Source: Bacteroidales bacterium (lineage in GTDB: Bacteria > Bacteroidota > Bacteroidia > Bacteroidales > UBA1402). From it: a stretch of DNA of 64,000 nt. Positions within the stretch are counted from its first letter, which is position 1. Every line of letters begins with the position of its first letter. This document shows, in pieces, positions 2,273-25,120 of this stretch. Made by a program: the position numbers and the translations under genes. The DNA is taken from NCBI GenBank assembly GCA_017380635.1, contig JAFODP010000002.1, positions 124,001 to 188,000 of the forward strand, in the 5' to 3' direction. A model generated the notes under the pieces. The model saw only the letters and a list, made by a program, of their open reading frames with translations, was not told the origin of the DNA and ran no database searches.

Positions 2273-4897
2273 ATGTATTTATCAACAATCTTTAAACGAA
2301 AGCTATTACTGGCTGCAATGCTGCTTTGTGCCGGTATGCTGAGCATGACAGCTGCGACGGTGGCTGATCTTAAGCCAATCAAAAGCACCTATGTGTATGC
2401 GTTTGATGCTTACACCCAAAATGGGGGGGGGTCTCGTGCTAAAGGTACCCTATTTGGAAACAATTATTTCATAGATGTAACGGGCGGATCTGTATCAACT
2501 GGAAAGGGTTCTATAGATATCTCTAATAGTAAAACATATTCCGCTATCAATGGTGCTGACGTAGATTATTTGTCTGTCAAATACAGCACTTATGGCTCGC
2601 AACTTAAATCTTTACGCCTGAAAAATGCACAAGATGTCATTGCCTTGAAACCGCTAGCCGGTTCTGTTATTTACGTTTTTGGTGAAGGTGGTGGAAAGAC
2701 AGGTGCTGGTGCGCGTATTCCTCGCTTCTCTACCGAGGCCGATTTGGATCCGGCTTTGAATGCTGCTCCCGATGAAAGTCATCCGAAAACCAATAATTAT
2801 GTTTACAAATTTGAGGTGCCGAAAGGTTTTGATGGAGAAGAGGTTTTGTACATTGGATCGTATAACGATGATGCCTATTTTAGCTATATCATTGTAGAAC
2901 TTCCTCCGGTTGAATCACTTTATGAGGTATCAGTGAGCGCCAGCCCCAATGAAGCCGGATTGGCCGCTGTTATCAGTCAGGCACCTGCACAAGAAGCAGG
3001 GAAAGAAGAAGTAATACTCGAAGCTAATCCCAATAAAGGTTATGCATTCAAAGAATGGCAAGATGACCAAGGCAACACTTTGTCGACAAATAATCCTTAT
3101 ACATGTGAAATTGGCGCTGATGCATCTTTCGTGGCTGTATTTGAACTTCGCGCTTTGCCTATTAGTGCAACGCCTGCCACGGTGTTGGTGAAGCATGTGT
3201 ATGATGTTACCGGCTGTAAAACAAAAGGCGAAAATCAGATAATAGATTCTTCTAAAGATGGTCATTATATCAAGTTCGATGTTATTCCTTCAGTAGCTGG
3301 TAAATATAGCTTCACTTCTGGTATTGGTACCAAGAATGATGGTATTGCAGTAACCCTTGGTTATATAGACGGTGCAGGCAATTATATCGAAAAGGAAAAG
3401 AAAAATATTACGAATACAGGCGGCTATAACAATCTAACAGACTATACCTGGGAATTCGACTTGGAAGAGCCTGGTAGTTTGTATACTTTTAAAATGCTTT
3501 GTCACAATGAAGGTAGTGGTTATTGTGTGAATGCCTATGCAATGGATGTTGTCCGTATCGGAGATGTTACTCCTACTTATACTGCTACTTATAGCATTGG
3601 CGATACTGGTGCTGAAGGTGCTGCTCCTGCTACAGAAAGTTTGAAGTCTGGAAAGTCTATCACCATTCCTGCCAACTATACTCTTTACAAAGAAGGCTAC
3701 ACCCTGACCGGATGGACTGACGGAGTAAAAACTTACAAACTGGGCGACAAAATGACGGTCACTGCTAATGTGGCTCTTACGCCTGTCTTTACACAAAACA
3801 ACGTGTCTTTGGCAACAAGAAACGATGCTGTGACCATCACCTGGGACTTCCAACGCAAAAATGGTGCACCCACGGTAGCATGGCAAGGAGGCTCTTATGC
3901 AAATATGGCATGGGTTTCTCAAGTGAAAGTTAATGGTGAAACCATCGATGTGAAAATGGGTGTGAATGCCGCTTCCGGTAAAGTGGCTAATGCCAACTGG
4001 AACGATTGGGCCCAAATCAATAAAGGAACTATTCTGAGTATTCCTGCTTGTAAAGGCGCTACCATCCAAATGGAATCTCATAGTGCCACAACAACTACCA
4101 CTATCGCCGGTGATACTATCGATCAAGGCACTAAAACTCCCTCATATACCTATGAAGGTTCGGATGAACAAGTGAATATTGTCATTGGTGATGGTTCATA
4201 TTGGCGTACAGTAAAGCTTACGCTTCCGGCTCGTACGCTTGATGTTGTCGATCGTGAAGACTTGGTGGCTGAAGGTACTTATGCCCAAGCTACTTATAGC
4301 CGTACGGTGGATCCTGCCTATAACTATGGAACCATCTGCCTGCCTTTCACTCCCGATGCTGAAACTTGTGAAAAATATACTTTCTATACCTTGAGCAAGG
4401 CAAACAGCACATCCATTACCTTTGTAGAAGTGGACGAACCTCAAGCTAATATGCCTTATCTCTACAGAGCAAAAGATAGAGAAGCAACTATACATACCTT
4501 CGCCGGTGGTGAAACCACAGTAAACACCGAAGCCGGAGCACATGTTGTGGGCAATTGGTCATTCGCAGGCGTATTTGCCAAAACTATTTTCAAACCTGCC
4601 GAATTGAACGCCAATCTGTATATTTATAAGCCCACCAGCGGTGAAGATCTCATTGTTGAAGCATTGAACAGCTTGACCATGTGGCCCTATCGTGCTTACT
4701 TCAAGTGTAACCAAGTGGTGGCAGCTTCTGCTCCTATGCTGCGCGTGGTGATCGATGGTGGTGTCACCGGTATTGAAGAAGTCATTACTCCCGACCAAAT
4801 CGAAGGCGCTGTTATCTACGACTTGATGGGCCGTCCTGTACAGCAGATGATTGAAGGTAACTTCTACATTGTTAATGGTGAAAAAGTGCTGTATTAA
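2273..4897 (+). CDS. Secreted InlB-repeat protein with an in-frame G9 tract
   Basis: An 874-residue exported protein of unknown function. The N-terminus has two basic residues, a hydrophobic core and an Ala-rich cleavage region (AATVA), consistent with a signal peptide. Two stretches resemble the InlB/Listeria-Bacteroides repeat fold: about residues 220-292 (EANPNKGYAFKEW) and about 438-510 (GYTLTGWTDG). The C-terminus ends in IYDLMGRPVQ...FYIVNGEKVLY, which looks like the short C-terminal tail of many Bacteroidales surface proteins and resembles type IX sorting domains. Nine G residues in a row at 2423-2431 encode Gly-Gly-Gly near residue 51. A one-base slip there would truncate the protein, so it may be phase variable. 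A 43-residue peptide gene follows 74 bases downstream, before the terminator. No enzymatic domain was recognised. Confidence 0.85.
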   Translation: MYLSTIFKRKLLLAAMLLCAGMLSMTAATVADLKPIKSTYVYAFDAYTQNGGGSRAKGTLFGNNYFIDVTGGSVSTGKGSIDISNSKTYSAINGADVDYLSVKYSTYGSQLKSLRLKNAQDVIALKPLAGSVIYVFGEGGGKTGAGARIPRFSTEADLDPALNAAPDESHPKTNNYVYKFEVPKGFDGEEVLYIGSYNDDAYFSYIIVELPPVESLYEVSVSASPNEAGLAAVISQAPAQEAGKEEVILEANPNKGYAFKEWQDDQGNTLSTNNPYTCEIGADASFVAVFELRALPISATPATVLVKHVYDVTGCKTKGENQIIDSSKDGHYIKFDVIPSVAGKYSFTSGIGTKNDGIAVTLGYIDGAGNYIEKEKKNITNTGGYNNLTDYTWEFDLEEPGSLYTFKMLCHNEGSGYCVNAYAMDVVRIGDVTPTYTATYSIGDTGAEGAAPATESLKSGKSITIPANYTLYKEGYTLTGWTDGVKTYKLGDKMTVTANVALTPVFTQNNVSLATRNDAVTITWDFQRKNGAPTVAWQGGSYANMAWVSQVKVNGETIDVKMGVNAASGKVANANWNDWAQINKGTILSIPACKGATIQMESHSATTTTTIAGDTIDQGTKTPSYTYEGSDEQVNIVIGDGSYWRTVKLTLPARTLDVVDREDLVAEGTYAQATYSRTVDPAYNYGTICLPFTPDAETCEKYTFYTLSKANSTSITFVEVDEPQANMPYLYRAKDREATIHTFAGGETTVNTEAGAHVVGNWSFAGVFAKTIFKPAELNANLYIYKPTSGEDLIVEALNSLTMWPYRAYFKCNQVVAASAPMLRVVIDGGVTGIEEVITPDQIEGAVIYDLMGRPVQQMIEGNFYIVNGEKVLY
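2423..2431 (+). repeat. Homopolymeric G9 tract inside a coding sequence
   Basis: Nine consecutive G residues about 150 nt into the gene for the 874-residue secreted protein. The length given keeps the frame open. Tracts like this are known slipped-strand sites in contingency genes of other bacteria; phase variation here is inferred. Confidence 0.9.
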
Positions 4898-4971: not shown

Positions 4972-5103
4972 ATGAAAAATTATATTGAATACGAAACTCC
5001 CGAAGTACTCGTGGTAGAATGTGAAGTTGAAAATGGTTTTGCTATGTCTTCCCCATCTTTCCGTCATGGTGATCCAGAAGAAGATCCAGAAGGTGAATGG
5101 TGA
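4972..5103 (+). CDS. Small acidic peptide, 43 residues
   Basis: A short open frame starting at ATG 4972 and ending at TGA 5101-5103. It lies between the 874-residue surface protein gene and a strong terminator, so it should be on the same mRNA. The peptide begins MKNYIEYETPEVLVVECEVE, has a central GFAMSSPS and an acidic end (DPEEDPEGEW). It has no signal peptide or membrane segment and one Cys. The layout 'YxxPEVxVVExExExGFxxS' resembles small unannotated peptides that I recall being frequent next to Bacteroidales surface proteins; this family likeness is from memory. It could also be a leader-core type RiPP precursor, but no maturation gene is adjacent. Coding status is likely but unproven. 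Confidence 0.6.
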   Translation: MKNYIEYETPEVLVVECEVENGFAMSSPSFRHGDPEEDPEGEW

Positions 5104-6539: not shown

Positions 6540-6575
6540 ATACGTCAATTATAATTAGATTCATATTTGCGGGCG

Positions 6576-6583
6576 CAAAATTA
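6576..6583 (-). promoter_or_regulatory. gdhA promoter, -7 element
   Basis: On the minus strand this reads TAATTTTG, a match to TAnnTTTG, about 37 bases upstream of the gdhA ATG. No perfect -33 TTTG is visible at the expected spacing. Confidence 0.5.
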
Positions 6584-6739
6584 GAAAAAGCATTTTTCTT
6601 CTGCAAGAAAACGATGTATATTGTTGAATAAAATTTGTATATCGTTGTGAATCAGTGGATATAATTATGTATATACTTGTATAATCATTCATAAGGCTGT
6701 ATTTTTTTGATTTTCATTTTTAACTTGTGAAGGATTCTG

Positions 6740-6747
6740 TAATTTTG
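6740..6747 (+). promoter_or_regulatory. Promoter -7 element for the thioredoxin-like/ChrA operon
   Basis: TAATTTTG matches the Bacteroidetes -7 consensus and lies 43 bases before the ATG at 6791. The -33 region is only T-rich. Confidence 0.5.
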
Positions 6748-6790
6748 CAGAAACTTTTGCACACTATTACAACACAAGACCTTATTATAT

Positions 6791-7660: not shown

Positions 7661-7662
7661 AT

Positions 7663-8217
7663 ATGATCAGTTTGTGGAATATATTTAGGGTCTTTGCCAA
7701 AATCGGAGCCTTCACCATTGGTGGAGGCATTCCTATGATTGCCGCCATCAAAAGCGAATTGGTGGAAAGACAATGGCTCAAAGACGAAGACTTTATCGAT
7801 ATCATTACCTTGGCTCAAACCGCGCCGGGGCTTTTTGCCGTCAATATCTCCATCCTCACCGGCTATAAACTCAGAGGCACCAAAGGTAGTGTTGTGGCTA
7901 CCATCGGAAGCTGTTTGCCGCCTTTCCTGATTATCTTGTTGGTAGCCATGTTTTTTACCTCATTCAAAGATAACGAATATGTTATCAAGGCATTCAAGGG
8001 CATCAGACCTGTGGTGGTGGCGCTTATCGGTATTCCAATGATTGACATGATAAAATCCACCGATATGAAATGGTGGTCGTGTTTGTTGGTGGTAGCTACC
8101 ATGACGCTGGTTTGTTTCCTGAAAGTATCGCCCATCTACATATTGATATGTGTCATGGTAATGGCATTATTCTTCAGTTGGTATCATCAACAAAAATCCA
8201 AGGAGGATAGGCCATGA
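7663..8217 (+). CDS. Chromate/anion transporter, ChrA half 1
   Basis: A 184-residue membrane protein of the CHR (chromate ion transporter) family, short form. The N-terminus has the family signature FAKIGAFTIGGGIPMI and then the TAPGLFAVNISILTGY block. Short CHR proteins occur as adjacent pairs that together make one transporter, as here. The ATG at 7663 is preferred; a GTG at 7657 overlapping the previous stop is the alternative. Followed with a 4-base ATGA overlap by the second half, which has a clear AGGAGG upstream. Substrate is uncertain: many CHR pairs in anaerobic gut bacteria have no known role in chromate resistance. Confidence 0.88.
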   Translation: MISLWNIFRVFAKIGAFTIGGGIPMIAAIKSELVERQWLKDEDFIDIITLAQTAPGLFAVNISILTGYKLRGTKGSVVATIGSCLPPFLIILLVAMFFTSFKDNEYVIKAFKGIRPVVVALIGIPMIDMIKSTDMKWWSCLLVVATMTLVCFLKVSPIYILICVMVMALFFSWYHQQKSKEDRP

Positions 8218-8762
8218 TTTACTTAGAACTGTTTCTTAGCTTTTTTGTGATAGGCATGTTTACCATCGGTGGTGGCTATGCCATGCTCTCGCTAATTCAG
8301 AACGAAGTGGTGACGGTGCATGGCTGGATTACAGACACTACTTTTACCGATATTGTGGCCATCTCTCAAATGACGCCCGGGCCTATCGGCATCAATTCCG
8401 CTACCTATATTGGATATGAAGTGCTGTCCAAATCTGGGGCTTCGGAATGTATGTGTATCTTGGGTTCGTTTACGGCCACCTTTGCCGTGGTGTTGCCGTC
8501 CTTCATTATTGTGTTGATGCTGTGCAAGGTCTATGAAAAATGGCGACATCACTTTTTATTTCAAGGAGTGCTGAAAGGTCTGCGACCGGCCGTGTTGGGT
8601 TTGGTGGGTACTGCTGCGCTTGGTTTGGCTACGCCCGAAAACTTTATCGACTGGAAAAGTTTTGTCATCTGTTTCGTGGCCTTCCTGGCGCTCTATTTCA
8701 AGAAAGTGGGGCCTTTTGCCATACTCGGTTTAGGGGCGATAGTCGGATTGTTGGTTTACTGA
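8214..8762 (+). CDS. Chromate/anion transporter, ChrA half 2
   Basis: A 182-residue CHR-family membrane protein, partner of the preceding gene. The matching signatures are FFVIGMFTIGGGYAML and AISQMTPGPIGINSATYIGY, with several hydrophobic segments after them. The start ATG at 8214 overlaps the stop of half 1 and has an AGGAGG Shine-Dalgarno sequence about 9 bases upstream, unusual for a Bacteroidetes gene and a sign of translational coupling. A terminator follows. Confidence 0.88.
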   Translation: MIYLELFLSFFVIGMFTIGGGYAMLSLIQNEVVTVHGWITDTTFTDIVAISQMTPGPIGINSATYIGYEVLSKSGASECMCILGSFTATFAVVLPSFIIVLMLCKVYEKWRHHFLFQGVLKGLRPAVLGLVGTAALGLATPENFIDWKSFVICFVAFLALYFKKVGPFAILGLGAIVGLLVY

Positions 8763-8812
8763 TAACTCCATCACTCATCACGATTCAGATTCCGAATGTT
8801 GAGATACAAAAA

Positions 8813-8847
8813 AGTGGCTAATCGGTCGTAAAGACTTTTTAGCCACT
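8813..8847. terminator. Bidirectional terminator between ChrA pair and secA
   Basis: An 8-bp stem (8813-8820 with 8840-8847) lies between the convergent chrA and secA stops, with A-runs before and T-runs after, so it can serve both strands. Confidence 0.7.
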
Positions 8848-8871
8848 CTTTTTATGCATGTTCAAGGTCGA

Positions 8872-12165
<3,294 letters not shown>

Positions 12166-12207
12166 AGTTTTATCTTTAAATTTTTATTTGACGGATGATG
12201 ATAAAGT

Positions 12208-12229
12208 CGCGCGCAACTTTACGCGCGCG
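12208..12229 (-). promoter_or_regulatory. GC-rich hairpin in the secA leader
   Basis: Alternating CG arms (12208-12214 with 12223-12229) around an 8-nt loop, in an otherwise AT-rich 5' leader about 45-65 bases before the secA start. It may be a translational control element; no family was recognised. Confidence 0.4.
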
Positions 12230-12239
12230 TGCGAAGCTG

Positions 12240-12247
12240 CAAACTTA
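12240..12247 (-). promoter_or_regulatory. Probable secA promoter, -7 element
   Basis: Reads TAAGTTTG on the minus strand, matching TAnnTTTG, between the PafA-like gene and secA. The -33 element is not clear. Confidence 0.45.
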
Positions 12248-12261
12248 CGCAAAAAAAGCCG

Positions 12262-13848
12262 TTATGGCAGCATAAATTCGGGTAAAATACGCCCGATATT
12301 CGCAGTAGGCGGACGAATGTATAGTCGGTGGCAGAGCGTGGGCGCAATATCGAAGAGAGAAACTTCGCTCTGTATGGTTTGTGCGGGCGTATGATTGCCG
12401 TAAAATACCAGCAGACTATGCTCTTTGTTGTAGCGCAACTGCTTGTTGTAGTGAGGATATTGACCCCATTCTATGTTACGGCCCTGTTGCAGACGCAAAA
12501 TCAAATCGCCCGAACGACTGTTGTAATGACTGTTCTGAAAATAATCCAGCGGATGGTTTTTGAAATTGAAATCTTGCGCCACGAATACTTGCTCAACGCC
12601 TTCCACTTCGGTAAGGAAGAGCGCTGCATCGTGACACAACTGATTGTAATCCAATCCTTTTTTCTCTATCAGATTTTTATCGAGATAGATTTCGGTGTCG
12701 CTATAGCCTTCTATCCATGCATCGCTGCCGTATTTGGCGCCCAAGTAAAGGTTCAGCAAAGTGGCGCAACGGTCGGGATAGAAACTGGGCGCTTCCTCCT
12801 TGGCCGGATAATGGGTTTCGCCGCTGCCCACTAAATAAACCAGCACATGTTCCATGCCGATTTTCTTGTCCAACTCTTTCAACAGCAGGGCGATGTCTTC
12901 GTCCAGACGGAAGTAGAGATCTTGGATTTCGAGAGAAGCTTGGGCTTGGTTGTCGCTTTGGCTATGTGCTAAATGGAAATGCAGGTTGAGCAAATCGGGT
13001 ACATCGTCTTGCCCCATTCGTTCGATGCCAATGAGTTCGATGGCCATGCGGCAAAGTTCTTCGTTGGCCATGGGGCTGCGCTTATATTGATTCACCTTGT
13101 CGGCCATCAGCGGAATATTGGCCAGGGAATAATGGAAAATCAGCGAAGGTTTCTGATGCGGCATGTGTATGTATTTGCCTATCGGATACTTGGGCTGCCA
13201 TACCATTTTGTCGAAATCCTTGTTGCGCAGTCGGAAGTCGTTCACGTTTTCTATCCAACGAGGCATCGAAGGATAATAAGTACTGCTGCACCACAGGCCG
13301 CTTTGGTTGTCGCGCCAGTAAACGCCGTCGGCATATTGTCCGCCGGAAATGACGCAGGCTTCGGCATCGAGTCCCAAAGAATAGACTTTTGCTTTGTGAT
13401 TGGTGGCCAACTTCAGTTCGTCTGCAAGGGTGGAAGTTTTGATGGATTTCGGCGAATATCGTTCGGTGGTATAATTGCCCAAATAATTGGCATCCGACAT
13501 TATCGATACCAAGTTGTTTTGTCGACGGTCGTAATAATTTTCACTGATGATGCCGTGATAACGCGGCGGACAAGCGCAAACGATACTGGCCACCGTGCTG
13601 GCATCGTCCTTGCGGGCCAATTGATAAGCTACTTGCGGATACACCTTTCCCTCGTGGAGCAACTTCTTGAATCCATCTTCGCAAAAGGCATCCATGAACC
13701 AATGCAGATAATCGCTTTCCAACTGATCGACATGAATGCCCACCACCAATTTAGGATAAGGCAGTTTGCTTTTTTCGGCGGCCGAAAGCTGACTCAGGTA
13801 ACAGAACGCTATCAATAAAGATAACCAATGCGATTTACGGGGAAACAT
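12262..13848 (-). CDS. PafA-family alkaline phosphatase homologue, catalytic residues lost
   Basis: A 528-residue exported protein (signal peptide, AEKSK after the likely cleavage site) clearly in the PafA/alkaline phosphatase superfamily: VVGIHVDQLESDYL near the N-terminus, PPRYHGIISENYYDR, and STLADELKLATNHKAKVYS. The catalytic features known for PafA are not kept. The TYTxPGHAS nucleophile loop reads DDASTVAS; the SLKDR phosphate-binding residues read GLDAE; the TADHG metal motif reads LVGSGE; the SxTDxxGH motif reads HLAHSQS; and the late HGxxYxYD histidine is absent. Only the first Asp (HVDQ) remains. It is therefore probably a pseudoenzyme that binds rather than hydrolyses. It starts 4 bases after the DUF4105 gene stop, within the nhaD-rhaM-DUF4105 operon. 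Confidence 0.8.
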   Translation of the reverse strand: MFPRKSHWLSLLIAFCYLSQLSAAEKSKLPYPKLVVGIHVDQLESDYLHWFMDAFCEDGFKKLLHEGKVYPQVAYQLARKDDASTVASIVCACPPRYHGIISENYYDRRQNNLVSIMSDANYLGNYTTERYSPKSIKTSTLADELKLATNHKAKVYSLGLDAEACVISGGQYADGVYWRDNQSGLWCSSTYYPSMPRWIENVNDFRLRNKDFDKMVWQPKYPIGKYIHMPHQKPSLIFHYSLANIPLMADKVNQYKRSPMANEELCRMAIELIGIERMGQDDVPDLLNLHFHLAHSQSDNQAQASLEIQDLYFRLDEDIALLLKELDKKIGMEHVLVYLVGSGETHYPAKEEAPSFYPDRCATLLNLYLGAKYGSDAWIEGYSDTEIYLDKNLIEKKGLDYNQLCHDAALFLTEVEGVEQVFVAQDFNFKNHPLDYFQNSHYNSRSGDLILRLQQGRNIEWGQYPHYNKQLRYNKEHSLLVFYGNHTPAQTIQSEVSLFDIAPTLCHRLYIRPPTANIGRILPEFMLP

Positions 13849-13851
13849 GGC

Positions 13852-15057
13852 TTAATGACTTTTTGGTGGAACGTAGGCTAAACTGCGTAGCACGAAAATG
13901 GCCACGAGCGGCCAGCAGGCCGGATGGATATGTTGCGGCACGATGATAGCCGCGATAATCATCAGCAGACAAAGCAAGCTGTTGATTTGGGCATAAGCCG
14001 GCGCTATCTTGCTTTTGCGGAAAGCCGGGAAACACAATGCAATGGCATAGCATAGATGCAGCGGTTGCAACCATAATATCAGCCAGTTATGATGCACGGC
14101 GGGGTGTTGCGAATATAAAGCTAAATAACAGAGCAAGAGTCCGGATACACCGGCTATCAGGTAAAGGAAAATATCTATCGGAAAGCACTTTTTTCGGTTT
14201 TTTATCTCGAAGAACATCAGCAACAGATTCAGCGCCAACAGTAGGCACATGCTGGCAAAAACGCTGTCGATGATTTTATTCTTGGGATGATTTTTATCGA
14301 GCGAACTGGCGGTTTGCGAGTCGGGAAAAGAGAGTAAATCGCAACTGCTTTTTACCAAAGGTCGCAGGCTGTCGCCACTGCAAATACTGGCAGTTTGCAA
14401 GGCAATCTGCATCTCGCCCGGAGCATAGAGCAAATCGCTGAAAGAGGCAGGACGGTCGGCTTCGGCGGCAATCAGGAAAGAAATGCCGAAATCGGCCCAG
14501 GGATGTGTGGCCGTGTAATGTTTGAGCGAGGCTCGGAGCGAAGGATAAAGCAAGCAACTGTCGTAGCAGACTTTTCCTTCGATGTTGCGTTCGACGATTT
14601 TTCTGGCGCGGGTGGCGCAGTTGTCGTAGAAGAAATTGTAACGATATTGACGATTTTCTTTTTTGGCATTTTCACGCAAAGCCTGCCATAAGGCTTCTTT
14701 TTCATTGGCACTGAGGTTGAGTGTTTGTTGGTGGATGCTACGGCCTTCGCTGCGATAGTCTTCGATGAAAGTGGCTGTGCGGCAATAACCCAACAGATAA
14801 TCGGTCTGTCCGCTGATGAAACGTCCGGCAAAGTTGGGCGCATTGAAATTGAACAGTCCGTAGTTGAAGCAAAGGTCGATGCCTTTTTCGGGGTCGTGGA
14901 TTCTGATGGCGCTGTGTCCGTAATGCGTCCAAATGGCTTGTCCAGGTGCACAGGTGAGCATTGAGATTTCGGCCGAGCCGCTCAATGAGGCAGTGCTGCT
15001 GGCGGCCTGCGCGCAGGCCGCCAGCAGCACCACAACTGCCATCAGGAATTTTCTCAT
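13852..15057 (-). CDS. DUF4105 (Lnb N-terminal-like) periplasmic/membrane protein
   Basis: A 401-residue protein with a signal peptide, a ~200-residue periplasmic DUF4105 domain (APGQAIWTHYGHSAIRIHDP, then FNYGLFNFNAPNFAGRFISG and the YNFFYDNCATRAR block) and five or so C-terminal membrane helices. The conserved His and Cys (HYGHS, DNCATR) recall NlpC/P60-like fold proteins, so a hydrolase or amide-bond activity is possible but not shown. The ATG at 15057 overlaps the rhaM stop (ATGA). A 38-bp perfect palindrome covers the end of the signal peptide codons. Its neighbour is the phosphatase-like pseudoenzyme. Confidence 0.82.
   Translation of the reverse strand: MRKFLMAVVVLLAACAQAASSTASLSGSAEISMLTCAPGQAIWTHYGHSAIRIHDPEKGIDLCFNYGLFNFNAPNFAGRFISGQTDYLLGYCRTATFIEDYRSEGRSIHQQTLNLSANEKEALWQALRENAKKENRQYRYNFFYDNCATRARKIVERNIEGKVCYDSCLLYPSLRASLKHYTATHPWADFGISFLIAAEADRPASFSDLLYAPGEMQIALQTASICSGDSLRPLVKSSCDLLSFPDSQTASSLDKNHPKNKIIDSVFASMCLLLALNLLLMFFEIKNRKKCFPIDIFLYLIAGVSGLLLCYLALYSQHPAVHHNWLILWLQPLHLCYAIALCFPAFRKSKIAPAYAQINSLLCLLMIIAAIIVPQHIHPACWPLVAIFVLRSLAYVPPKSH
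14993..15030. repeat. 38-bp perfect palindrome within the DUF4105 signal-peptide codons
   Basis: Two 19-base halves (14993-15011 and 15012-15030) are exact reverse complements without a spacer. The transcript would fold into a GC-rich hairpin starting about 27 nt after the start codon. Confidence 0.9.
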
Positions 15058-15446
15058 TTGTACAAATAGAACATTCTGTCCATCAACTGCCATTTCTCAG
15101 CCGACGACAAGCCCGGCTTGGTGTCTTGGAAAATGGCCATATAGTCTTCCCATTCCGCCTGACGAGGCAAGGTGGCCAATTTGGCCATGGCGCTTTCCCA
15201 TTCAAAGTCGATGGGGGTTTCCACTATCATGAACAGACGATTGCCCAGAATATAAATCTCCATTTCAAGGATGCCCACTTGGCGGATGCCTTCGCGAATT
15301 TCGGGCCAAGCATAAGCTTCGCTATGGCGCTTGATATATTCTTCAATCAATTCCGGATTGTCTTTCAAATCCATGGTTTGACAATATCTTTTCACCGGGC
15401 CGTGATACTCTTGTACACGGTAACCTTGTTTTGCAATGTCACTCAT
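15054..15446 (-). CDS. L-rhamnose/L-fucose mutarotase-like protein (RhaM family)
   Basis: A 130-residue protein of the RhaM (DUF718) sugar mutarotase family, which interconverts anomers of deoxysugars. Seen: RYCQTMDLKDNPELIEEY, a HSEAYAWPEI segment with the family His, GILEMEIYILGNRLFMIVE, and the end block LPRQAEWEDYM. It has about 15 extra residues at its N-terminus compared with E. coli RhaM. It sits between an NhaD-like antiporter gene (3-base gap) and DUF4105 (ATGA overlap), with no other rhamnose or fucose gene nearby, so the substrate is open. Confidence 0.85.
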   Translation of the reverse strand: MSDIAKQGYRVQEYHGPVKRYCQTMDLKDNPELIEEYIKRHSEAYAWPEIREGIRQVGILEMEIYILGNRLFMIVETPIDFEWESAMAKLATLPRQAEWEDYMAIFQDTKPGLSSAEKWQLMDRMFYLYK

Positions 15447-17069: not shown

Positions 17070-19313
17070 ATGAAAAGGTTTTTTTGTTTTATGACCCTAG
17101 CGTCATCGATGGCCGCATTGTTTGCCTCCCAGCCATCTTCCCAACTCGACACAACACGTATTTACGAACTCGATGTGGTAGAAATCGTTACCACACAAGC
17201 CCGACAGACCACGCCCGTGGCCCACGAAAACATCAGTCCGGAGACGATGCTTCGCAACAGTTACGGCAACGATTTGCCTTCCACTTTGGCATTGACTCCT
17301 TCGATGATTGCCACCAACGAAAGCGGTATCGGCATTGGCGCCACTTCTATCCGTCTGAGAGGTAGCGATGCCACGCGTATCAATGTTACCCTGAACGACG
17401 TTTCCTTGAATAATCCCGATTCACACTCCATGTACTGGTACGACACGCCCGACCTTATCTCGTCGGTAGGATCGATACAGGTACAGCGCGGTGCAGGTGT
17501 TTCAACCAATGGTAGCGGGGCTTTCGGTGGCGCCGTTTCTATGCGTACCGATGCGCTCAGTCCCGATTTTCAAGGTTCTGCTTCGATGTCTTATGGTTCG
17601 TACAACACCAACAAGCAAGCCGTGCAACTGTCTTCGGGCCTTTTGCGCGATCGTTGGGTGCTGGATGCCCGCTTGTCGCATATCGGATCGGATGGTTATA
17701 TCGACCGCGCTTCGACCAATTTGAGTAGCTATATGGCACAAGTAGGTTATTATGGCGACAAGACACGTTTGAAATTGCTTTCTTTCGGCGGAACAGCCAA
17801 GACTTACCTTACTTATAATGGTGTGTCGCGCGAAGAAATGGAACTCTACGGACGTCGTTATCATAGTTCAGGACAATACGAAACAACGGCAGGCCCGCAC
17901 GTGCTGGCCGACGGAACCCATGTGGATTATCACGACGACGAAACAGACAACTATCTGCAAATCAACAATCAATTGGTGTTGAATCATCGTATCGACGAAC
18001 ATTGGCAGTATCATAGCACCTTGTTTTATACCTACGGTTACGGCTATTACAACCAATACAAGGACGATGCCTATTTGGCTTCTTATCTGCCTTTGAATAT
18101 TCAAGACGGACAAGCCGATTTGATCCGCAACAAGATTATGCTCAATCATTTGGGCGGTTTGAATGCTTCGGCATCTTATCAGAACGAGTCGCTCGATTTG
18201 CGTTTCGGTGGTTCTTGGTCGTATTATACTTGTCCGCACTGGGGCGAACTTACCTGGGTAGATGGTTTGGACGCTGATGCTTTGCAAGGTCGTTGGTACG
18301 ATAATGATGTCAACAAGCAGGATGCCAATGTGTTTGCTCGAGCCGATTGGGCAGTTTGGCAAGCTTCACGTCATCAGGCGCTTCATCTTTTCAGCGATTT
18401 GCAATATCGTTATGTCGATTACAAAGCCTGGGGCTGCAACGACAATGCCGTTTGGGGCGACGAAGGCGTGTATATGCAGGAAATCAACGTGGATAAGCAA
18501 TATCATTTCTTCAATCCTCGTTTCGGTTTGAATTACCAACATCAAAAGCATCAGGCATTTGCATCGGTGGCCGTGGCGCATCGCGAGCCCACGCGTTCCG
18601 ATTTTACCGATCGTTATATGTTTGCTGCCGACGATACTTATCCCGAACCCGAACGCCTCATCGACTACGAATTGGGCTATTCTTACAAAAGCTCTTCTTT
18701 GGCCTTAGGTATCAATCTCTATTACATGGATTATCACAATCAGTTGGTTGCCACCGGTATGGTGAACGATGGCGATGATGCTTTGAATGTGAATGTCGAC
18801 AAAAGTTTCCGTCGAGGCGTGGAATTGATGGCAACTTGGAAAAGCACTAAATGGCTCGATTTGTCGGCCAATGCCACCTTCTCGCAAAACAAAATCCGCG
18901 ATTATGTGGATGCCTTGCGCGATAGTCCTACCTACGGCATGAACCTGGGTGACATGACCATTTCTTATTCGCCTTCGGCGATGGCTAATTTCTCTGCCGA
19001 TTTCCATGTAAAGGGCTTCAATGCGGTATGGAATACGCAATATGTTGGTAAACAATATTTTACCAATAACGAGATTGAAGCTTTGTCGCTGGATGCCTAC
19101 ACGGTGAGCAACCTAGATTTGTCTTACACCTTCGATTATCAGAAAACGAATACCGTACGTTTTGGTTTGAGTATCTACAATGTTTTCTCAGCCCAGTATG
19201 AATCGAATGGTTATGGCTATTCTTATATGTGGGATGGCGTACGCTACGACGAGGCTTTTTATTTCCCGCAAGCGCCGAGACATGTTTTGGCTAATGTGAC
19301 GGTAAATTTCTAA
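17070..19313 (+). CDS. TonB-dependent outer membrane receptor, thiamine-regulated
   Basis: A 747-residue TonB-dependent receptor. A signal peptide (MKRFFCFMTLASSMAALFAS) is followed by a TonB-box-like segment (LDVVEIVTTQ), a plug domain (SIRLRGSDATRINVTLNDV, GSIQVQRGAGVSTNGSGAFGG) and a 22-strand barrel ending in the usual C-terminal Phe (NVTVNF). There is no SusD partner and no N-terminal carboxypeptidase-like domain. The TPP riboswitch upstream and the PnuT-type gene 13 bases downstream imply that it takes up thiamine or its phosphates across the outer membrane. Substrate is inferred from context. Confidence 0.92.
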   Translation: MKRFFCFMTLASSMAALFASQPSSQLDTTRIYELDVVEIVTTQARQTTPVAHENISPETMLRNSYGNDLPSTLALTPSMIATNESGIGIGATSIRLRGSDATRINVTLNDVSLNNPDSHSMYWYDTPDLISSVGSIQVQRGAGVSTNGSGAFGGAVSMRTDALSPDFQGSASMSYGSYNTNKQAVQLSSGLLRDRWVLDARLSHIGSDGYIDRASTNLSSYMAQVGYYGDKTRLKLLSFGGTAKTYLTYNGVSREEMELYGRRYHSSGQYETTAGPHVLADGTHVDYHDDETDNYLQINNQLVLNHRIDEHWQYHSTLFYTYGYGYYNQYKDDAYLASYLPLNIQDGQADLIRNKIMLNHLGGLNASASYQNESLDLRFGGSWSYYTCPHWGELTWVDGLDADALQGRWYDNDVNKQDANVFARADWAVWQASRHQALHLFSDLQYRYVDYKAWGCNDNAVWGDEGVYMQEINVDKQYHFFNPRFGLNYQHQKHQAFASVAVAHREPTRSDFTDRYMFAADDTYPEPERLIDYELGYSYKSSSLALGINLYYMDYHNQLVATGMVNDGDDALNVNVDKSFRRGVELMATWKSTKWLDLSANATFSQNKIRDYVDALRDSPTYGMNLGDMTISYSPSAMANFSADFHVKGFNAVWNTQYVGKQYFTNNEIEALSLDAYTVSNLDLSYTFDYQKTNTVRFGLSIYNVFSAQYESNGYGYSYMWDGVRYDEAFYFPQAPRHVLANVTVNF

Positions 19314-19326
19314 TAAATAATAAGGT

Positions 19327-19917
19327 ATGACACTTTCTCTTTTGCTTCAAATTGTTGGAACGGCCCTCGGGCTTTGGTATCTGTGGCTGGAATATCATGC
19401 GAATATCTGGCTGTGGATAGTGGGCGCCATCATGCCCATGGTACATGGACTTTTGTATCTGAGCAGCGGTATCTATGCCGATGCGGCCATGCAACTTTAT
19501 TACGTCCTGGCCGGCATCTATGGCCTGATGGTGTGGCGTCGCAGGCCGAAAAACAAAAGCGAAGGAAAGATTGTGCATACGCCTCTTAAGTGGCTGCCGG
19601 TCTTGCTCGTTGTGTATGCGCTGCTGCACTTCTTGCTCTATTTCCTACTGACGGAATTTACCGACAGCCGCGTACCTTTCTTCGATGCCATGTCTACCGC
19701 TTTGAGCATGGTGGCCATGTGGATGCTGTCGCGACGTTTGGTGGAACAATGGTTGGTTTGGTTGGTAGTAGACATGATCAGCGTGGGCCTCTACCTCTAT
19801 AAACAGATCCCCATCACCGCCGGCTTGTATACCATCTATTGCATCCTGGCAGTGGTCGGTTACCTGCGCTGGCGCAAACTGGCCAAAACCGCCAAAGAGG
19901 AAGTGCTACAAGGATAG
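19327..19917 (+). CDS. pnuT: PnuC/PnuT-family transporter, probable thiamine transporter
   Basis: A 196-residue inner membrane protein with seven or so hydrophobic segments. It has the PnuC-family features: WYLWLEYHANIWLWIVGA at the N-terminus and LVWLVVDMISVGLYLYK near the C-terminus. PnuC proteins carry nicotinamide riboside by facilitated diffusion; the PnuT subgroup carries thiamine and is typically under TPP riboswitch control in Bacteroidetes. The thiamine pyrophosphokinase gene that often follows is not here: the next gene is on the other strand, and the two coding ends overlap by 12 bases. Confidence 0.88.
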   Translation: MTLSLLLQIVGTALGLWYLWLEYHANIWLWIVGAIMPMVHGLLYLSSGIYADAAMQLYYVLAGIYGLMVWRRRPKNKSEGKIVHTPLKWLPVLLVVYALLHFLLYFLLTEFTDSRVPFFDAMSTALSMVAMWMLSRRLVEQWLVWLVVDMISVGLYLYKQIPITAGLYTIYCILAVVGYLRWRKLAKTAKEEVLQG

Positions 19918-20739
19918 TAGTTTTTCAAGAAATTTCTGTATCAACTGGTTAATTAACGCGGGCGCGTCGGTATTGGCGTTGTGGCCCGCGTTTTTTATCC
20001 ATATCAGTGGAATGCCGCTCATTTTGTGCCATCTTTTGTTGTAGCCGATGCAAGAGCCCGCATGATCTTTTTCTCCGCAGATAAGCAGCGCCGGACATTT
20101 TATTTCGTAAGGCAGATCGGCCTCCATGGCTTCGGCCAGCATACGATAACCGTGACCGCAAATCTTGGCATATCTGTCTTGTTGGCCGTCGTAGTGCATC
20201 ATGATGTCGCGCATCAATGCTCTGCCGTAGGCCGAAGTGGACACGCCATTACTGCCAAGTTTCAGTAGCGATTTCCAGGGATAATAACGATACACCGGCT
20301 CCATTTTTTTCAGCAGCCAAATTTCCAAAGCTGTGACATATGCTCTTTGCAAAGGCGCCGAGTCGATGGAAATGAAGCCACGCAGTTTGTCGGGAAAGAG
20401 TTGCGCATACATTTGTCCCACATAGCCGCCCATGGATTGACCGACAATGACAGGCGCCTCGATATGTTCTTTTTGCAAGATTTCGTCCAGCCAGATGGCT
20501 TTGTCTTTCAGCGTGAACGAGAAGTCGAAAGGCCAGGAAGCGGCATGCGCCGGTGCATCCCACACCAACACGCGATAGCCTTGCTCGAAAAAAGCAATCT
20601 GTTGTTCGAACAAACGATGATCGGCCGTCAGGCCCGGCAAAAATATCAATGCCAAAGACGAAGCCTGAAGGCTATCGCAGGAGTTGTTCGTCCAATAGTG
20701 AATTTCTCCGCAAGTTGTAGGGTGTGTTTTTTCTATCAT
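19906..20739 (-). CDS. Alpha/beta hydrolase, last gene of the PqqD/HPrK-like operon
   Basis: A 277-residue alpha/beta hydrolase. The nucleophile elbow is GQSMGG (Ser), the acid is in ICGEKDHAG, and the His in NAGHNANTD; the oxyanion-region motif is LIFLPGLTADHRLF. There is no signal peptide, so it acts in the cytoplasm. The ATG at 20739 overlaps the stop of the S26 peptidase gene (ATGA), which argues against the longer upstream frame. It ends the six-gene operon and overlaps pnuT's end by 12 bases. Substrate unknown; an esterase, thioesterase or peptidase role on the operon's product is possible. Confidence 0.85.
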   Translation of the reverse strand: MIEKTHPTTCGEIHYWTNNSCDSLQASSLALIFLPGLTADHRLFEQQIAFFEQGYRVLVWDAPAHAASWPFDFSFTLKDKAIWLDEILQKEHIEAPVIVGQSMGGYVGQMYAQLFPDKLRGFISIDSAPLQRAYVTALEIWLLKKMEPVYRYYPWKSLLKLGSNGVSTSAYGRALMRDIMMHYDGQQDRYAKICGHGYRMLAEAMEADLPYEIKCPALLICGEKDHAGSCIGYNKRWHKMSGIPLIWIKNAGHNANTDAPALINQLIQKFLEKLLSL

Positions 20740-21206
20740 GCTTGTTTGGATGCCTTTGTTTGTCTGTCGAAAAAGAAGTGCAAAAAGCGAAGCAGCAAAG
20801 ATCTGAGCAGTCCGCTTTTGGGCCAAAGTCGGCTGGCCAATGTCCAACGACAATTTGTCACCTCGATTACTTTGCCCGAAGGGCGCACGAGGGCCTGCAT
20901 TTTTCCTACCACCTCCTCGCGCAAACAAGTCTCCTTGGCTATATAAGAACCATCGCCCTGTATGCAAAGTTTGTCATTGTCTATGTGGATGATACGATGC
21001 AAAAGATGTTTTCCTTTGTAACGAAACAGTACCACGTCGCGCACGCGTAATTCTTCGGCACGACAAGGCGCCAGCACCACTTCGTCTTTTTGGTTGCGGA
21101 GCAGGGGAAACATCGAAACACCTTTCAGGCGGAAACGGACGCTTCTGCCGGCGGCAATTTCACTCTCCACCCAGGCAAAGAACATATCGTTGGGAATATT
21201 TTTCAT
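20736..21206 (-). CDS. S26-family signal-peptidase-like serine protease (Ser-His type)
   Basis: A 156-residue protein of the S24/S26 peptidase fold. The serine box is LKGVSMFPLL. The second box, VRDVVLFRYKGKHLLHRIIH, has His where bacterial signal peptidase I has Lys, as in the ER/archaeal (SEC11/SipW) subgroup. The end of the protein has a hydrophobic, basic segment (RLWPKSGLLRSLLLRFLHFFF) that may attach it to the membrane; no N-terminal membrane anchor is visible. The start at 21206 overlaps the HPrK-like gene's stop (ATGA). In this operon it is a candidate for cleaving a leader peptide. Confidence 0.82.
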   Translation of the reverse strand: MKNIPNDMFFAWVESEIAAGRSVRFRLKGVSMFPLLRNQKDEVVLAPCRAEELRVRDVVLFRYKGKHLLHRIIHIDNDKLCIQGDGSYIAKETCLREEVVGKMQALVRPSGKVIEVTNCRWTLASRLWPKSGLLRSLLLRFLHFFFDRQTKASKQA

Positions 21207-22066
21207 GCTTCGTTGGGGAAAATGCTTTGGCAAGAAAGTTGGGCGGCTTCGGCGTTGGGCAAGCAAGACAAATGGTAAAAACGCGTGCTCGAGAGCAAAT
21301 GGTTGATAAAACTTCCCACGTGGTCGTAGAGCTTATTGTCGTAGGCGAATTCCGGCGGACAAGAGGGATGAATGGCACCATAAGCCTGCAATACCGACAA
21401 CTTTTTGATGATGTTTTCGGGGCCTTGCGATAGTCTGACGCAAGCAGTCAGTTCGTGACGTTCGGCTTTGTAGCATGGCGTTTTTCCGCTCCAGGGGCTG
21501 CCGTAGGCCCAAACTTTTCCCTCTTCTATGCGGATGATGGGACTGTCGTCGTTGAGAAGCGTGGCGCCGGCAATGTGTTCGCGCCACAAACGCGTGTGTG
21601 TGCTTTTGCCTGTGCCGCTTTCGCCCAAAAACAGCACCGCTTTGCCTTGGTACAGAATGCAACTGCTATGAATGGTCACCGTGTGGTAGGGCAAGGTCAT
21701 CAGGCCAAAACCAAGCCATAAGGCAAAACGATACAAGTACACTTCCCACAGTCCATTCATCTGTACATCCTTGTCGCCATCCCGATGCCAAAGGCAAAAG
21801 GCTTCTTTGTCTTGAGGTTGAAGATGAAGCAGATAGCCTTCGTTGTAACGCCCAAAAATGCCATGCACATCTTCGTAATCGAAATGATACAAGGCTTGTT
21901 GCATGAGTGGCGCTGTCTGGCCTTCCACGAAACGGAAAAGCGGCTCCGATGTGTTGTCTTTGTCCAAAAGAAAAGGTTTGAAGCCGGCAATCTGCGATAC
22001 CATGCGGCAAATTTTGTCACCTTCCACGCCGAAGATGTGTCCTGCTACCGAATATTTTTGAATCAT
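21203..22066 (-). CDS. HPr-kinase-like P-loop protein
   Basis: A 287-residue protein with the C-terminal kinase fold of HPr kinase/phosphorylase. Walker A is GESGTGKST at about residue 152; the next conserved block is LLNDDSPIIR, then YGSPWSGKTPCY, a motif I associate with the HPrK-like proteins of RiPP and PqqD clusters. The N-terminal ~130 residues carry no recognised domain. Family precedent: a homologue in the paeninodin cluster phosphorylates a lasso peptide. The start 4 bases after the ABC transporter stop shows tight coupling. Confidence 0.82.
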   Translation of the reverse strand: MIQKYSVAGHIFGVEGDKICRMVSQIAGFKPFLLDKDNTSEPLFRFVEGQTAPLMQQALYHFDYEDVHGIFGRYNEGYLLHLQPQDKEAFCLWHRDGDKDVQMNGLWEVYLYRFALWLGFGLMTLPYHTVTIHSSCILYQGKAVLFLGESGTGKSTHTRLWREHIAGATLLNDDSPIIRIEEGKVWAYGSPWSGKTPCYKAERHELTACVRLSQGPENIIKKLSVLQAYGAIHPSCPPEFAYDNKLYDHVGSFINHLLSSTRFYHLSCLPNAEAAQLSCQSIFPNEA

Positions 22067-22069
22067 AAT

Positions 22070-23695
22070 TTAGTCTAAATGAATGATGCGGTCGCAATAA
22101 GACAAAGAACTGTCGCGATGCGCAATAGATAATATACAGAGTTTGGGATAGTCTTTTTTCAAGTTCGACAGGCAAAGATTGATGTCTTGTTCGCTTTGGT
22201 TGTCGAGGGCCGAGGTGGCTTCGTCGAGGAAGAGTACGGCGGCTTGTTTGTACAAAGCGCGTGCAATGCCGATGCGCTGTTTTTGTCCGCCCGAAAGTTT
22301 GGCGCCCGCTTCGCTCATGCGCGTGTGAATGCCCTCCGGCAAGCTTTCCAGCCATTGACCCAAGCCCACCTGAAAGACGATTTCTCTGACGCGCTCTTCG
22401 TCGATGTTTTGGCATCCCAGGGCAATGTTTTCGGCCAGGTTTCCGTTGAAAATGAAAACTTCCTGCGGCACGTAACCGATGCTTTTCATCCACGAGCTGC
22501 GATGCTGTCTGTCTAATACGACATCGTCTATTAGGATTTTTCCCGACAAGGGTTCCAGAAAACCGAGCAAGATATTGAACAGCGTCGATTTACCCGCACC
22601 GCTGGCGCCGCAAATGCCCACATATTCTCCCGGACGAATGCAAGCATTGAATTGGTTCAATACCAGATTGCCATCCGGATAAGCATAAGAAAGATCTTGT
22701 ATCTGAATAAGTTTTTCGAACTTTATTTCGTGCCAATCTTCCGCTTCGTTTTCGTTGTAGTTTTTCAAGCCATCTTCGATGGTGTCCAGGCAATGCGAAG
22801 CGTTCTGAATCTGGGTCCAAGACGATAGAATGTTTCTCAGCGCGGGCAAAAGACGAAAAGCGGCGATGGCGAAAACGCCCACCATCATGCTGATATCGCC
22901 TTGGGCAAACAATAGCAACAAGCACAGCCCAAGCACCACCGACAGTTCGGATAGAAACATGGGAAGTCGCATCAGGTTGTCCAGTTTGATGCGCGTCTGG
23001 CTAATTTTGTCCATGCCTTCCAGAAAGGACGCTTGTCGCGAGGCGAAGGCGCCGTTCACTTCCATGTCGATGTAGCCTCTGAAAGTGTCCATCACGATGC
23101 GCGCTTGTTCTCGCTTGACATTCAAATCGTCTTTGCCGTATTGTTGTACGCGTTTTCTTACCACCAAAAAATAAAGGCCCATAAAAGGAATGAAGGCCAA
23201 AAAGAGCAGCAAAACTAGTTTGCCTTTCCAGCAAAGCAAGGCGATAGTGATAAGCAGTACGAGCAAAATATCTCCGGCCATGCGGCAGATAGGCGCCAAC
23301 AAACTGTGGCTGAAGGCGTAGCAAATGGCGTTGATTTCGTGTCCCAACTTGTTGCTGCCATGTTCGCGGATAAACAATAATCCTCGCTGATAATAAGACG
23401 AAAACAAGTGAAAACTAAGCCTGCGGTAGAACGAGAGCAGACATTGGTTCTGATAACGCAAGAGGTAGGTGCCGAGCAGGTATTTCAACAACACCACGCC
23501 AAAGGCCAATAGGCAGAAAAACAGGGCCGCTTGTTTTTGGCTGTTTTCTTCGAGCAGAAAATACAGCACAGGCAAGAGCATCGCCAAACTTAGAAAGTTG
23601 AGCAAGGCATTAAAGAACACGCCCAAAGCCATCTTAAACAATTGTTTGCGTTCTTTTTCCTGCAAAAGTCGATAGATTCTGCCTAACATCGTCAT
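22070..23695 (-). CDS. ABC exporter (fused membrane and ATPase domains)
   Basis: A 541-residue half-transporter: six membrane segments (residues ~20-300) followed by an ATPase domain. Walker A is GICGASGAGKSTLFN, the signature LSGGQKQRIGIARAL, Walker B AVLFLDEATSALD and the H-loop SIAHRDSS. There is no N-terminal C39 peptidase domain, so any leader removal must come from another protein such as the adjacent S26 peptidase. It resembles the McjD/PglK/LapB-type exporters found in lasso-peptide and polysaccharide clusters. ATG at 23695 used; an ATG at 23689 is possible. Confidence 0.88.
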   Translation of the reverse strand: MTMLGRIYRLLQEKERKQLFKMALGVFFNALLNFLSLAMLLPVLYFLLEENSQKQAALFFCLLAFGVVLLKYLLGTYLLRYQNQCLLSFYRRLSFHLFSSYYQRGLLFIREHGSNKLGHEINAICYAFSHSLLAPICRMAGDILLVLLITIALLCWKGKLVLLLFLAFIPFMGLYFLVVRKRVQQYGKDDLNVKREQARIVMDTFRGYIDMEVNGAFASRQASFLEGMDKISQTRIKLDNLMRLPMFLSELSVVLGLCLLLLFAQGDISMMVGVFAIAAFRLLPALRNILSSWTQIQNASHCLDTIEDGLKNYNENEAEDWHEIKFEKLIQIQDLSYAYPDGNLVLNQFNACIRPGEYVGICGASGAGKSTLFNILLGFLEPLSGKILIDDVVLDRQHRSSWMKSIGYVPQEVFIFNGNLAENIALGCQNIDEERVREIVFQVGLGQWLESLPEGIHTRMSEAGAKLSGGQKQRIGIARALYKQAAVLFLDEATSALDNQSEQDINLCLSNLKKDYPKLCILSIAHRDSSLSYCDRIIHLD

Positions 23696-23701
23696 AGTCG
23701 T

Positions 23702-24805
23702 TTATCTGAAAATGCTCTCCGGTTTTTTGAGGTGAATCAAGAACGATTGCCAGAATTCATGCCAGAAACTTACCGAAATAATCTTGTGCTGCAGACGATT
23801 GCGATGAATCAGGCGACGAAGTTTGTAGATGAATATGGCCACTTTATTTTTGTGCGGGCAGTTGTTGACGTACAATGGATGAAGCATTTCGCCTATCATT
23901 TCCTGGGCAATGGCCTGCGCTTTTGGATTGTCTATCGGGATTTGGCAGCCTAAGTATTCGTTGCAAAGATACGTGAAGGCGCCGATGCCGTCGATGAGTT
24001 TTTGGTCTTTTACTTCCTTGGGTAGCTGCAAACTATATCGGCGCAGCAAGATGGCCCAGTCGCAAAGATGATGCAGGCTCAGTCCGGCACAATAATGTTG
24101 CGTGGCATGAAACGACAGGAACAAGGTGTTGAAAGCATTCGAAGGTCTGAGAATTTCTCCTTCGGCCAGCGCCACGGGTTCGGGTTGCATATTCTTGCGC
24201 AGCAACTCATTTATTCTACTGGCCGTTTGACTGCTTTTGACATTGAGAAAAGTTTTATGATTCTCGATGGGAACGCCTTGGTAAAAGAAATGGCTGTGCT
24301 TGTAATATTCTATGTCAACCTCTATTCCTTGCTCTTGCATAAGTCTGTCGGCTAGGGCGTTGGCTTCTTCGTGCGAGATGATGTCGGTGTTGGCCGAATA
24401 GGTAAAAATGTCGATGTCGCCGCCTTCGCGATGCGAAGGATTAGGGTAGAGCGTAGAAACGGCTAAACCTTTCATCACCATGGTTTGGATGTGATGCTGT
24501 GCATAAAAACGCGTAAGGCTGTCTATACAACGGCAGTAACGGAGATAAGTCTGTTCGTAACGTTCAACGTGCGCGGCCCAAGTGAGTTTGATGGCTTTGT
24601 CGGGTTGCAGATTCTTGGGCAAGTGGAGCAGCGCATCCCAAGCCAAGGCCATAACACCATGTTTACAAGCCAATTGAAAACAATTTCGCCAATCTTCCTG
24701 GCTGCCGTTTTCAAAAGGAAGTGTCGCTACTTCTTTTTCGTGCAAAGATGCGCTGAGCAATGCAAACAGCATTTGCTCTTGTTTGTTCGGGCTAAAAATC
24801 TTCAT
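23702..24805 (-). CDS. Nucleotidyltransferase family protein (NTP_transf_5-like)
   Basis: A 367-residue protein resembling the uncharacterised nucleotidyltransferase family found with lasso-peptide and polysaccharide clusters. The metal-binding motif is HREGGDIDIFTYS, with the preceding helix QTMVMKGLAVSTLYP; CAGLSLHHLCDWAILLRRY follows. Both catalytic Asp residues (DID) are present, so it may be active. The ATG at 24805 is preferred over the TTG at 24811. It begins 9 bases after the PqqD-like stop. Substrate unknown: it may modify a peptide or a small molecule. Confidence 0.82.
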   Translation of the reverse strand: MKIFSPNKQEQMLFALLSASLHEKEVATLPFENGSQEDWRNCFQLACKHGVMALAWDALLHLPKNLQPDKAIKLTWAAHVERYEQTYLRYCRCIDSLTRFYAQHHIQTMVMKGLAVSTLYPNPSHREGGDIDIFTYSANTDIISHEEANALADRLMQEQGIEVDIEYYKHSHFFYQGVPIENHKTFLNVKSSQTASRINELLRKNMQPEPVALAEGEILRPSNAFNTLFLSFHATQHYCAGLSLHHLCDWAILLRRYSLQLPKEVKDQKLIDGIGAFTYLCNEYLGCQIPIDNPKAQAIAQEMIGEMLHPLYVNNCPHKNKVAIFIYKLRRLIHRNRLQHKIISVSFWHEFWQSFLIHLKKPESIFR

Positions 24806-24814
24806 GAACAATCT

Positions 24815-25081
24815 TTATTCGATGATGCCACATTTTTGCAGGCCGCTTATCCATTTGGCGGCGTCTGTCAGGGCTTGTTCCTGGCTAATTTGGTAGGTGT
24901 CTACCAAAACTTTGGCAACATCTTCTGTTTCGAAATCCTTGCCTTGCAAAGCTTCGTAAAGGGTACGTGCCGATTCGTTGAGCGAGATGATTCTGGTCAT
25001 GCTCACTTGTTCGGTGCCTTGGTTTACCACGATGCATTCGCCGGCAATGTCGCGCAATTTATAGTTGTTATCGATTTTCAT
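24815..25081 (-). CDS. PqqD-like peptide chaperone (RRE domain)
   Basis: An 88-residue PqqD-family protein. The winged-helix fold is indicated by VVNQGTEQVSMTRIISLNESARTLYEAL, then DFETEDVAKVLVDTYQIS and a last helix KWISGLQKCGIIE. PqqD domains bind the leader of ribosomal peptides and present it to modifying enzymes. First gene of the operon, with a likely promoter directly upstream. No precursor peptide gene is seen between it and the GH63-like gene. Confidence 0.85.
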   Translation of the reverse strand: MKIDNNYKLRDIAGECIVVNQGTEQVSMTRIISLNESARTLYEALQGKDFETEDVAKVLVDTYQISQEQALTDAAKWISGLQKCGIIE

Positions 25082-25112: not shown

Positions 25113-25120
25113 CAAAGGTA
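25113..25120 (-). promoter_or_regulatory. Promoter -7 element of the PqqD/HPrK-like operon
   Basis: Reads TACCTTTG on the minus strand (TAnnTTTG), 32 bases upstream of the PqqD-like ATG. No clear -33 element is visible. Confidence 0.5.

Follow-up and report, generated by a model that had tools for sequence, protein, structure and literature searches.

We analyzed a stretch of 64,000 nucleotides from a Bacteroidales genome (UBA1402; GenBank assembly GCA_017380635.1, contig JAFODP010000002.1, positions 124,001 to 188,000 of the forward strand), hereafter referred to as the window. It includes a minus-strand operon encoding, in order, a PqqD-type protein, a nucleotidyltransferase, an ATP-binding cassette (ABC) exporter, an HPrK-fold kinase, an S26 signal-peptidase-like protein, and an alpha/beta hydrolase (Table 1). 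All six genes were confirmed, and the tight spacing noted in a preliminary description of this locus was upheld, with every gap or overlap below 10 bp: gaps of 9 bp between the PqqD and nucleotidyltransferase genes (3 bp from an alternative TTG start), 6 bp between nucleotidyltransferase and exporter, and 3 bp between exporter and kinase, followed by 4-bp overlaps between kinase and S26 and between S26 and hydrolase. The first five genes recur together across Bacteroidales, and probably represent a Bacteroidota counterpart of the machinery for linear polyphosphorylated peptides (LPP), a family of ribosomally synthesized and post-translationally modified peptides (RiPPs), acting here in trans on several dispersed precursors. 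LPPs are produced by the lppA-K-B-S-D-N genes of Paenibacillus alginolyticus, which include an archaeal-type signal peptidase I (SpI), a RiPP recognition element (RRE), an HPrK-like kinase, a nucleoside triphosphate (NTP) transferase, and an MsbA-type exporter, and no cyclase (Popov et al. Nat Commun 2026, PMC13381572).

Table 1 Features of the operon, candidate precursors, and putative partners. Positions refer to the window unless a related locus (L number) is given; L164 is another contig (C26) of the same genome (G000).
Feature	Position	Strand	Evidence or remark
PqqD-type discrete RRE (LppB-like)	24815..25081	-	PF05402, 42.3 bits, over cut-off
NTP_transf_5 nucleotidyltransferase (LppN/PsmN-like)	23702..24805	-	PF14907, 2.5e-43
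MsbA-type ABC exporter (LppD-like), no peptidase domain	22070..23695	-	PF00005, 1.8e-32
HPrK-fold kinase (LppK-like)	21203..22066	-	TIGR04352, 2.5e-4, weak; fold by structure
S26 signal-peptidase-like putative leader peptidase (LppS-like)	20736..21206	-	TIGR02228; fold by structure
Alpha/beta hydrolase, co-transcribed, not a conserved component	19906..20739	-	PF00561, 1.6e-15
Candidate precursor MKNYIEYETPEVLVVECEVENGFAMSSPSFRHGDPEEDPEGEW	4972..5103	+	Profiles of operon-adjacent peptides from other genomes
Secreted 874-aa InlB-type repeat protein, putative partner	2273..4897	+	PF18998, 4.2e-10; PF09479, 1.1e-6
BspA-type leucine-rich repeat lipoproteins, 949 and 2231 aa	L164 (G000:C26) 5289-8138 and 8389-15084		Precursor-like peptide gene directly before each
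Divergent-leader peptides	L043 10774-10959; L044 8823-8981; L045 18324-18512; L046 10943-11113		

Five of the six genes have firm identities, with the kinase and the S26 protein, both weak by sequence, settled by their structure models. The nucleotidyltransferase carries a GGDIDIF metal-binding-type motif and is encoded by a single copy in the genome, while both the membrane and ATPase halves of the exporter align to MsbA/PglK families, and a domain search of the window protein found no C39 domain. The AlphaFold2 model of the kinase (predicted local distance difference test score, pLDDT, 97.4) matched members of the PEPCK/HPrK superfamily in Foldseek, including 1knx, 1kkm, and 3tqf (probability 1.0), and its P-loop (GESGTGKST) is accompanied by H133, K154, D173, and D174, invariant across 66 sequences. 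For the S26 protein, the best match was the archaeal-type signal peptidase I model TIGR02228 (3.3e-7, below cut-off), and the structure model (pLDDT 94.3) displayed a fold like that of the type I signal peptidases SpsB (4wvh) and SipA (4n31). The family residues S31 (72/72), H70 (72/72), and D85 (70/72) match the Ser/His/Asp of LppS, and the Ser–His spacing of 39 is that of S29/H68 in LppS, which supports the earlier suggestion that this protein could act as the leader peptidase. Sequence searches of the PDB yielded no useful relative from the single PqqD sequence or from the kinase profile, and relatives emerged only with a profile for PqqD and a comparison of folds for the kinase. The PqqD profile matched TfuB1 (6jx3), TbiB1, PbaB1 (9x90), and LppB (9x8z), and in a profile alignment N35 (46/47) and D73 (47/47) fall in the same columns as N33 and D70 of LppB, the residues that contact the YxxP leader (PMC13381572).

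Next, we evaluated how this gene set is conserved, by searching for the kinase in 149 genomes of the order and in GTDB contigs, where at least 522 relatives were detected and 80 named loci kept. Of 100 related loci, 90 place the HPrK and S26 genes side by side and 11 show the exact order of the window (PqqD-NTP-ABC-HPrK-S26), while other loci display a shuffled gene order or a split set. Based on this adjacency and on the 11 loci with the exact order, the association of the five genes is more than chance, and their order is not unique to this strain; uniqueness would have refuted the earlier reading. When PqqD was not beside the kinase, it was present elsewhere in all 20 genomes tested, and an apparent lack of PqqD in Alistipes-type loci was rejected on that basis. 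In one locus, from Phocaeicola sartorii JCM 17136 (L074, 8360-10408), the ABC and kinase genes each seem to be frame-split, due to either a sequencing error or decay of the locus. The hydrolase, which was suggested earlier to perhaps finish or detoxify the product, did not fit this pattern: although its gene overlaps the S26 gene by 4 bp on the same strand, none of the 100 related loci has it, and the genes found after S26 in the closest relatives are unrelated to it. It is a local hitchhiker rather than part of the system, and a true six-gene pathway is very unlikely.

The RRE, HPrK, NTP transferase, and exporter, previously noted as the accessory set of some lasso-peptide clusters, are shared with paeninodin-like ones, and the operon could thus belong to a lasso-peptide cluster, or be a remnant of one, with the cyclase and B2 protease encoded elsewhere. 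However, a search of the whole assembly (97% complete) did not detect the asparagine-synthetase-like lasso cyclase, the only PF00733 (Asn_synthase) matches being MnmA and GuaA, and yielded no match to PF13471 (Transglut_core3) at E ≤ 10 for the B2 transglutaminase-like protease. The absence of both enzymes, already noted for the operon, therefore extends genome-wide; together with the recurrence of the cyclase-free set in many genera, it makes a lasso-peptide origin extremely improbable, and this reading was rejected.

The preliminary description also considered a precursor peptide to be absent, which is correct inside the operon, where the gap of 72 bp from the PqqD gene to its neighbor leaves no room for one, but not in the rest of the window or the genome. 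In many relatives, the operon is adjoined by members of a family of 40–60 aa peptides with a YxxP...VExGFAx(S/T) leader, and profiles built from such peptides in other genomes matched a candidate precursor in the window (E = 6.2e-7 with profile A3, 3.0e-7 with profile A4). Two additional copies are located on contig C26 (15106-15234 and 8164-8295), for a total of three in this genome; the first profile, A2, was a mixture of distantly related leaders and had no match here, while the homogeneous A3 did. The common leader reads YxxPx(V/I)E(V/I)(V/I)E(V)xVExGFAx(S/T) and is followed by a variable, mostly acidic core of 9–27 residues, often ending in Trp, Phe, or Tyr. Across the 28 peptides of the family profile, the Tyr, the Pro, one Glu, and the Gly are invariant, and the residue following GFAx is Ser in 25 and Thr in three. 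This profile also matched loci outside of its training set, with operon-side peptides in, e.g., the close relatives L055 and L057, as well as L062, L063, L066, L068, L074, and L093. None of the candidate operon-adjacent peptides tested matched a Pfam or NCBIfam model. Separately, divergent members of the order (L043-L046) encode peptides with a related but distinct leader (YIKPxIxEIxID...ISLIM) near or between PqqD and kinase, and several of these are adjoined by large secreted proteins.

To determine whether these peptides co-occur with the kinase, we used a sample of 393 genomes of the order, 58 with a kinase (E ≤ 1e-10) and 335 without. Peptides matching A4, which was built from other records and provides a more independent test than A7, were detected in 9/58 kinase-encoding genomes vs 2/335 of the others (p = 8e-7). 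For A7, which contains peptides from some of the genomes tested, the corresponding numbers were 10/58 and 3/335. When genomes were instead chosen for the presence of the kinase, 45 of 50 encoded peptides, for a total of 237 copies and up to 20 dispersed copies per genome. The support asked for in the preliminary description, a conserved gene order with a small peptide gene nearby, was found in Bacteroidales.

The genomic context of the peptides suggests a link with surface proteins. In 18 of 24 cases, the gene following the peptide is predicted to encode a lipoprotein, against a background of 76 in 1180 genes (p = 2e-16); in four of the other six it encodes the kinase. Peptide genes are mostly located 10–80 bp upstream of these lipoprotein genes, and many of the lipoproteins have a common, fimbrillin-like N-terminal domain, whose profile, derived from other genomes, matched both lipoproteins at the C26 peptides (1.8e-21 and 3.6e-17). 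Some of the partners match the fimbrillin-like Mfa_like_1 (PF13149), and others carry BspA leucine-rich repeats (LRR), BACON, or pectate-lyase-like adhesive domains. At the window peptide, the gene directly upstream, 74 bp before the peptide ATG, encodes the InlB-type repeat protein, which has an N-terminal signal sequence. Since a surface-lipoprotein gene comes immediately after most precursor genes, the mature product probably acts together with the adjoining surface protein, or on it. The same 10–80 bp spacing would also be consistent with a reading in which the peptides were regulatory leader open reading frames, i.e., translational attenuators of the lipoprotein genes, and the five-gene set had another target. 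Yet several peptides directly precede the kinase with no lipoprotein involved (L032/L130, L093, and L094), the presence of peptides tracks that of the kinase, YxxP is a known RRE ligand motif and the RRE residues reading it are conserved, and the peptides are conserved at the amino acid level with a variable tail, all of which make attenuation quite unlikely.

Alternatively, the enzymes may modify the surface lipoproteins themselves, or envelope glycans, with the small peptide merely serving as an adaptor or guide. The tight pairing of peptides with fimbrillin-like, LRR, or BACON lipoproteins would be consistent with such a role, as would the location of LPP clusters within polysaccharide loci in Bacilli (PMC13381572). 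The homologous Bacillota enzymes, however, modify and cut the peptide itself, and a variable core placed after an invariant leader and Ser/Thr resembles a substrate, so that we consider an adaptor role unlikely.

For the operon itself, a candidate promoter may be located on the minus strand at 25113-25120, some 30 bp upstream of the PqqD start codon, where TACCTTTG fits the Bacteroides -7 box (TAnnTTTG). On the other side, a PnuC-type nicotinamide riboside transporter gene (19327-19917), downstream of a TonB-dependent receptor gene (17070-19313), is convergent with the operon.

If the five proteins act as their LPP homologs do, the PqqD protein would bind the YxxP leader, as suggested by homology and by its conserved contact residues, and the kinase would phosphorylate the invariant Ser/Thr of GFAx(S/T) at the leader–core junction. 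In LPP biosynthesis, (poly)phosphorylation of core Ser3 depends on the kinase, with deletions showing that LppK phosphorylates, and cleavage by LppS requires the RRE LppB (PMC13381572). In the pseudomycoidin-type lasso system, PsmN adds a sugar to the phosphate, and by analogy the nucleotidyltransferase may place a group, e.g., a sugar, on the phosphate. The S26 peptidase would then remove the leader near GFAxS, either with the Phe at position -3 as in LPP or in the A-x-S style of signal peptidases, and the MsbA-type transporter would export the core. Binding, phosphorylation, cleavage, and export are suggested by homology; the order of the steps, the exact cut site, the nature of the NTP-derived group, and the function are our inferences. 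This mechanism agrees with the chemistry initially guessed, i.e., phosphorylation and nucleotidylation in place of cyclization, which appears essentially right given a core shared with LPP.

Several observations weigh against this interpretation. The Bacteroidales leader shares YxxPx(V/I) with the LPP consensus (YxxPxVLxHQxIxFETxxS; PMC13381572), but then continues as E(V/I)(V/I)E(V)xVExGFAx(S/T), i.e., with GFAx(S/T) instead of HQxIxFETxxS, and the PqqD RRE profile ranks TfuB1 (5.4e-8) over LppB (0.003). Because the leader departs from the consensus and the RRE is only a possible member of the monophyletic LPP clade of Bacillota, we do not assign the system to LPP sensu stricto, and describe it as LPP-like with homologous parts. 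The window peptide is about 16–20 kb from the operon, and 48 of the 58 kinase-encoding genomes, especially those with divergent kinases, yielded no A7-type peptide, indicating that their substrates differ or were missed. Conversely, three genomes (G166, G239, and G293) carry precursor-like peptides with no kinase detected at the threshold. Even in LPP the NTP step is unproven, as no effect of LppN could be seen in the heterologous host B. subtilis (PMC13381572). Finally, the evidence in Bacteroidota, from gene set and order, folds, and catalytic and leader-binding residues to the family of peptides that co-occur with the system and pair with lipoproteins, is all computational, and experiments come only from the Bacillota LPP.

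The pairing of precursors and lipoproteins provides a first testable handle on function for a family whose role is not known. One tentative scenario is that a single enzyme set serves many cassettes of peptide and surface lipoprotein, with (poly)phosphorylated, possibly sugar-linked linear peptides assembling on, switching on, or labeling their fimbrillin-like or LRR neighbors. If so, this would represent a RiPP pathway dedicated to surface-protein biology rather than to secreted antibiotics. The unlinked multi-precursor layout also means that neighborhood-based RiPP miners would miss the system.

Compared to known systems, the five-component core is not undescribed, as initially suggested, since it has been characterized biochemically in Bacillota as LPP, to which the family was said to be restricted, with Bacteroidota not mentioned (PMC13381572). 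The window set includes all five parts, lacks a cyclase, is associated with a YxxP leader, and has conserved S26 Ser/His/Asp and PqqD Asn/Asp residues. It differs from LPP in being found in Bacteroidota (Bacteroidales), in its acidic cores of about 9–27 aa vs 45 in LPP, and in its precursors, which are dispersed and paired with surface lipoproteins. The paeninodin/pseudomycoidin-type lasso peptides (PadeK, PsmK, PsmN) share the kinase, nucleotidyltransferase, RRE, exporter, and a YxxP/WxxP-type leader, but unlike them this genome lacks the macrolactam synthetase and the B2 protease. Within Bacillota, profiles of the window families recovered all five families in the Butyrivibrio fibrisolvens pNP243 cluster (L178; kinase 1.6e-48, S26 2.8e-29, PqqD 1.3e-22, NTP 4e-31, ABC 3.8e-95), where the kinase and PqqD genes flank one for a YVKPEL peptide; the cluster differs by a Cys/Pro-rich core, two PqqD genes, a split ABC gene, and the glycosyltransferases and two-component system encoded alongside. 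At L178 8578-10601, the order is kinase, 57-aa Cys/Pro-rich YVKPEL peptide, PqqD, and S26, with kinase and peptide both annotated as hypothetical. Fimbrillin-like and BspA-type LRR lipoproteins are encoded beside the peptides, with a shared N-terminal domain that is also present at two of the copies in this genome; such lipoproteins are not known to be paired with a RiPP-like peptide, and a literature search found no paper linking fimbrillins with RiPPs. Overall, what appears to be new is an LPP-like machinery in Bacteroidota that uses a leader of another type, serves several scattered precursors, and is coupled to surface lipoproteins. Along with its likely substrates, this machinery would widen a family so far reported only in Bacillota and, through kinase relatives in hundreds of Bacteroidales loci, including Bacteroides, Phocaeicola, and Alistipes, extend it to major gut bacteria.

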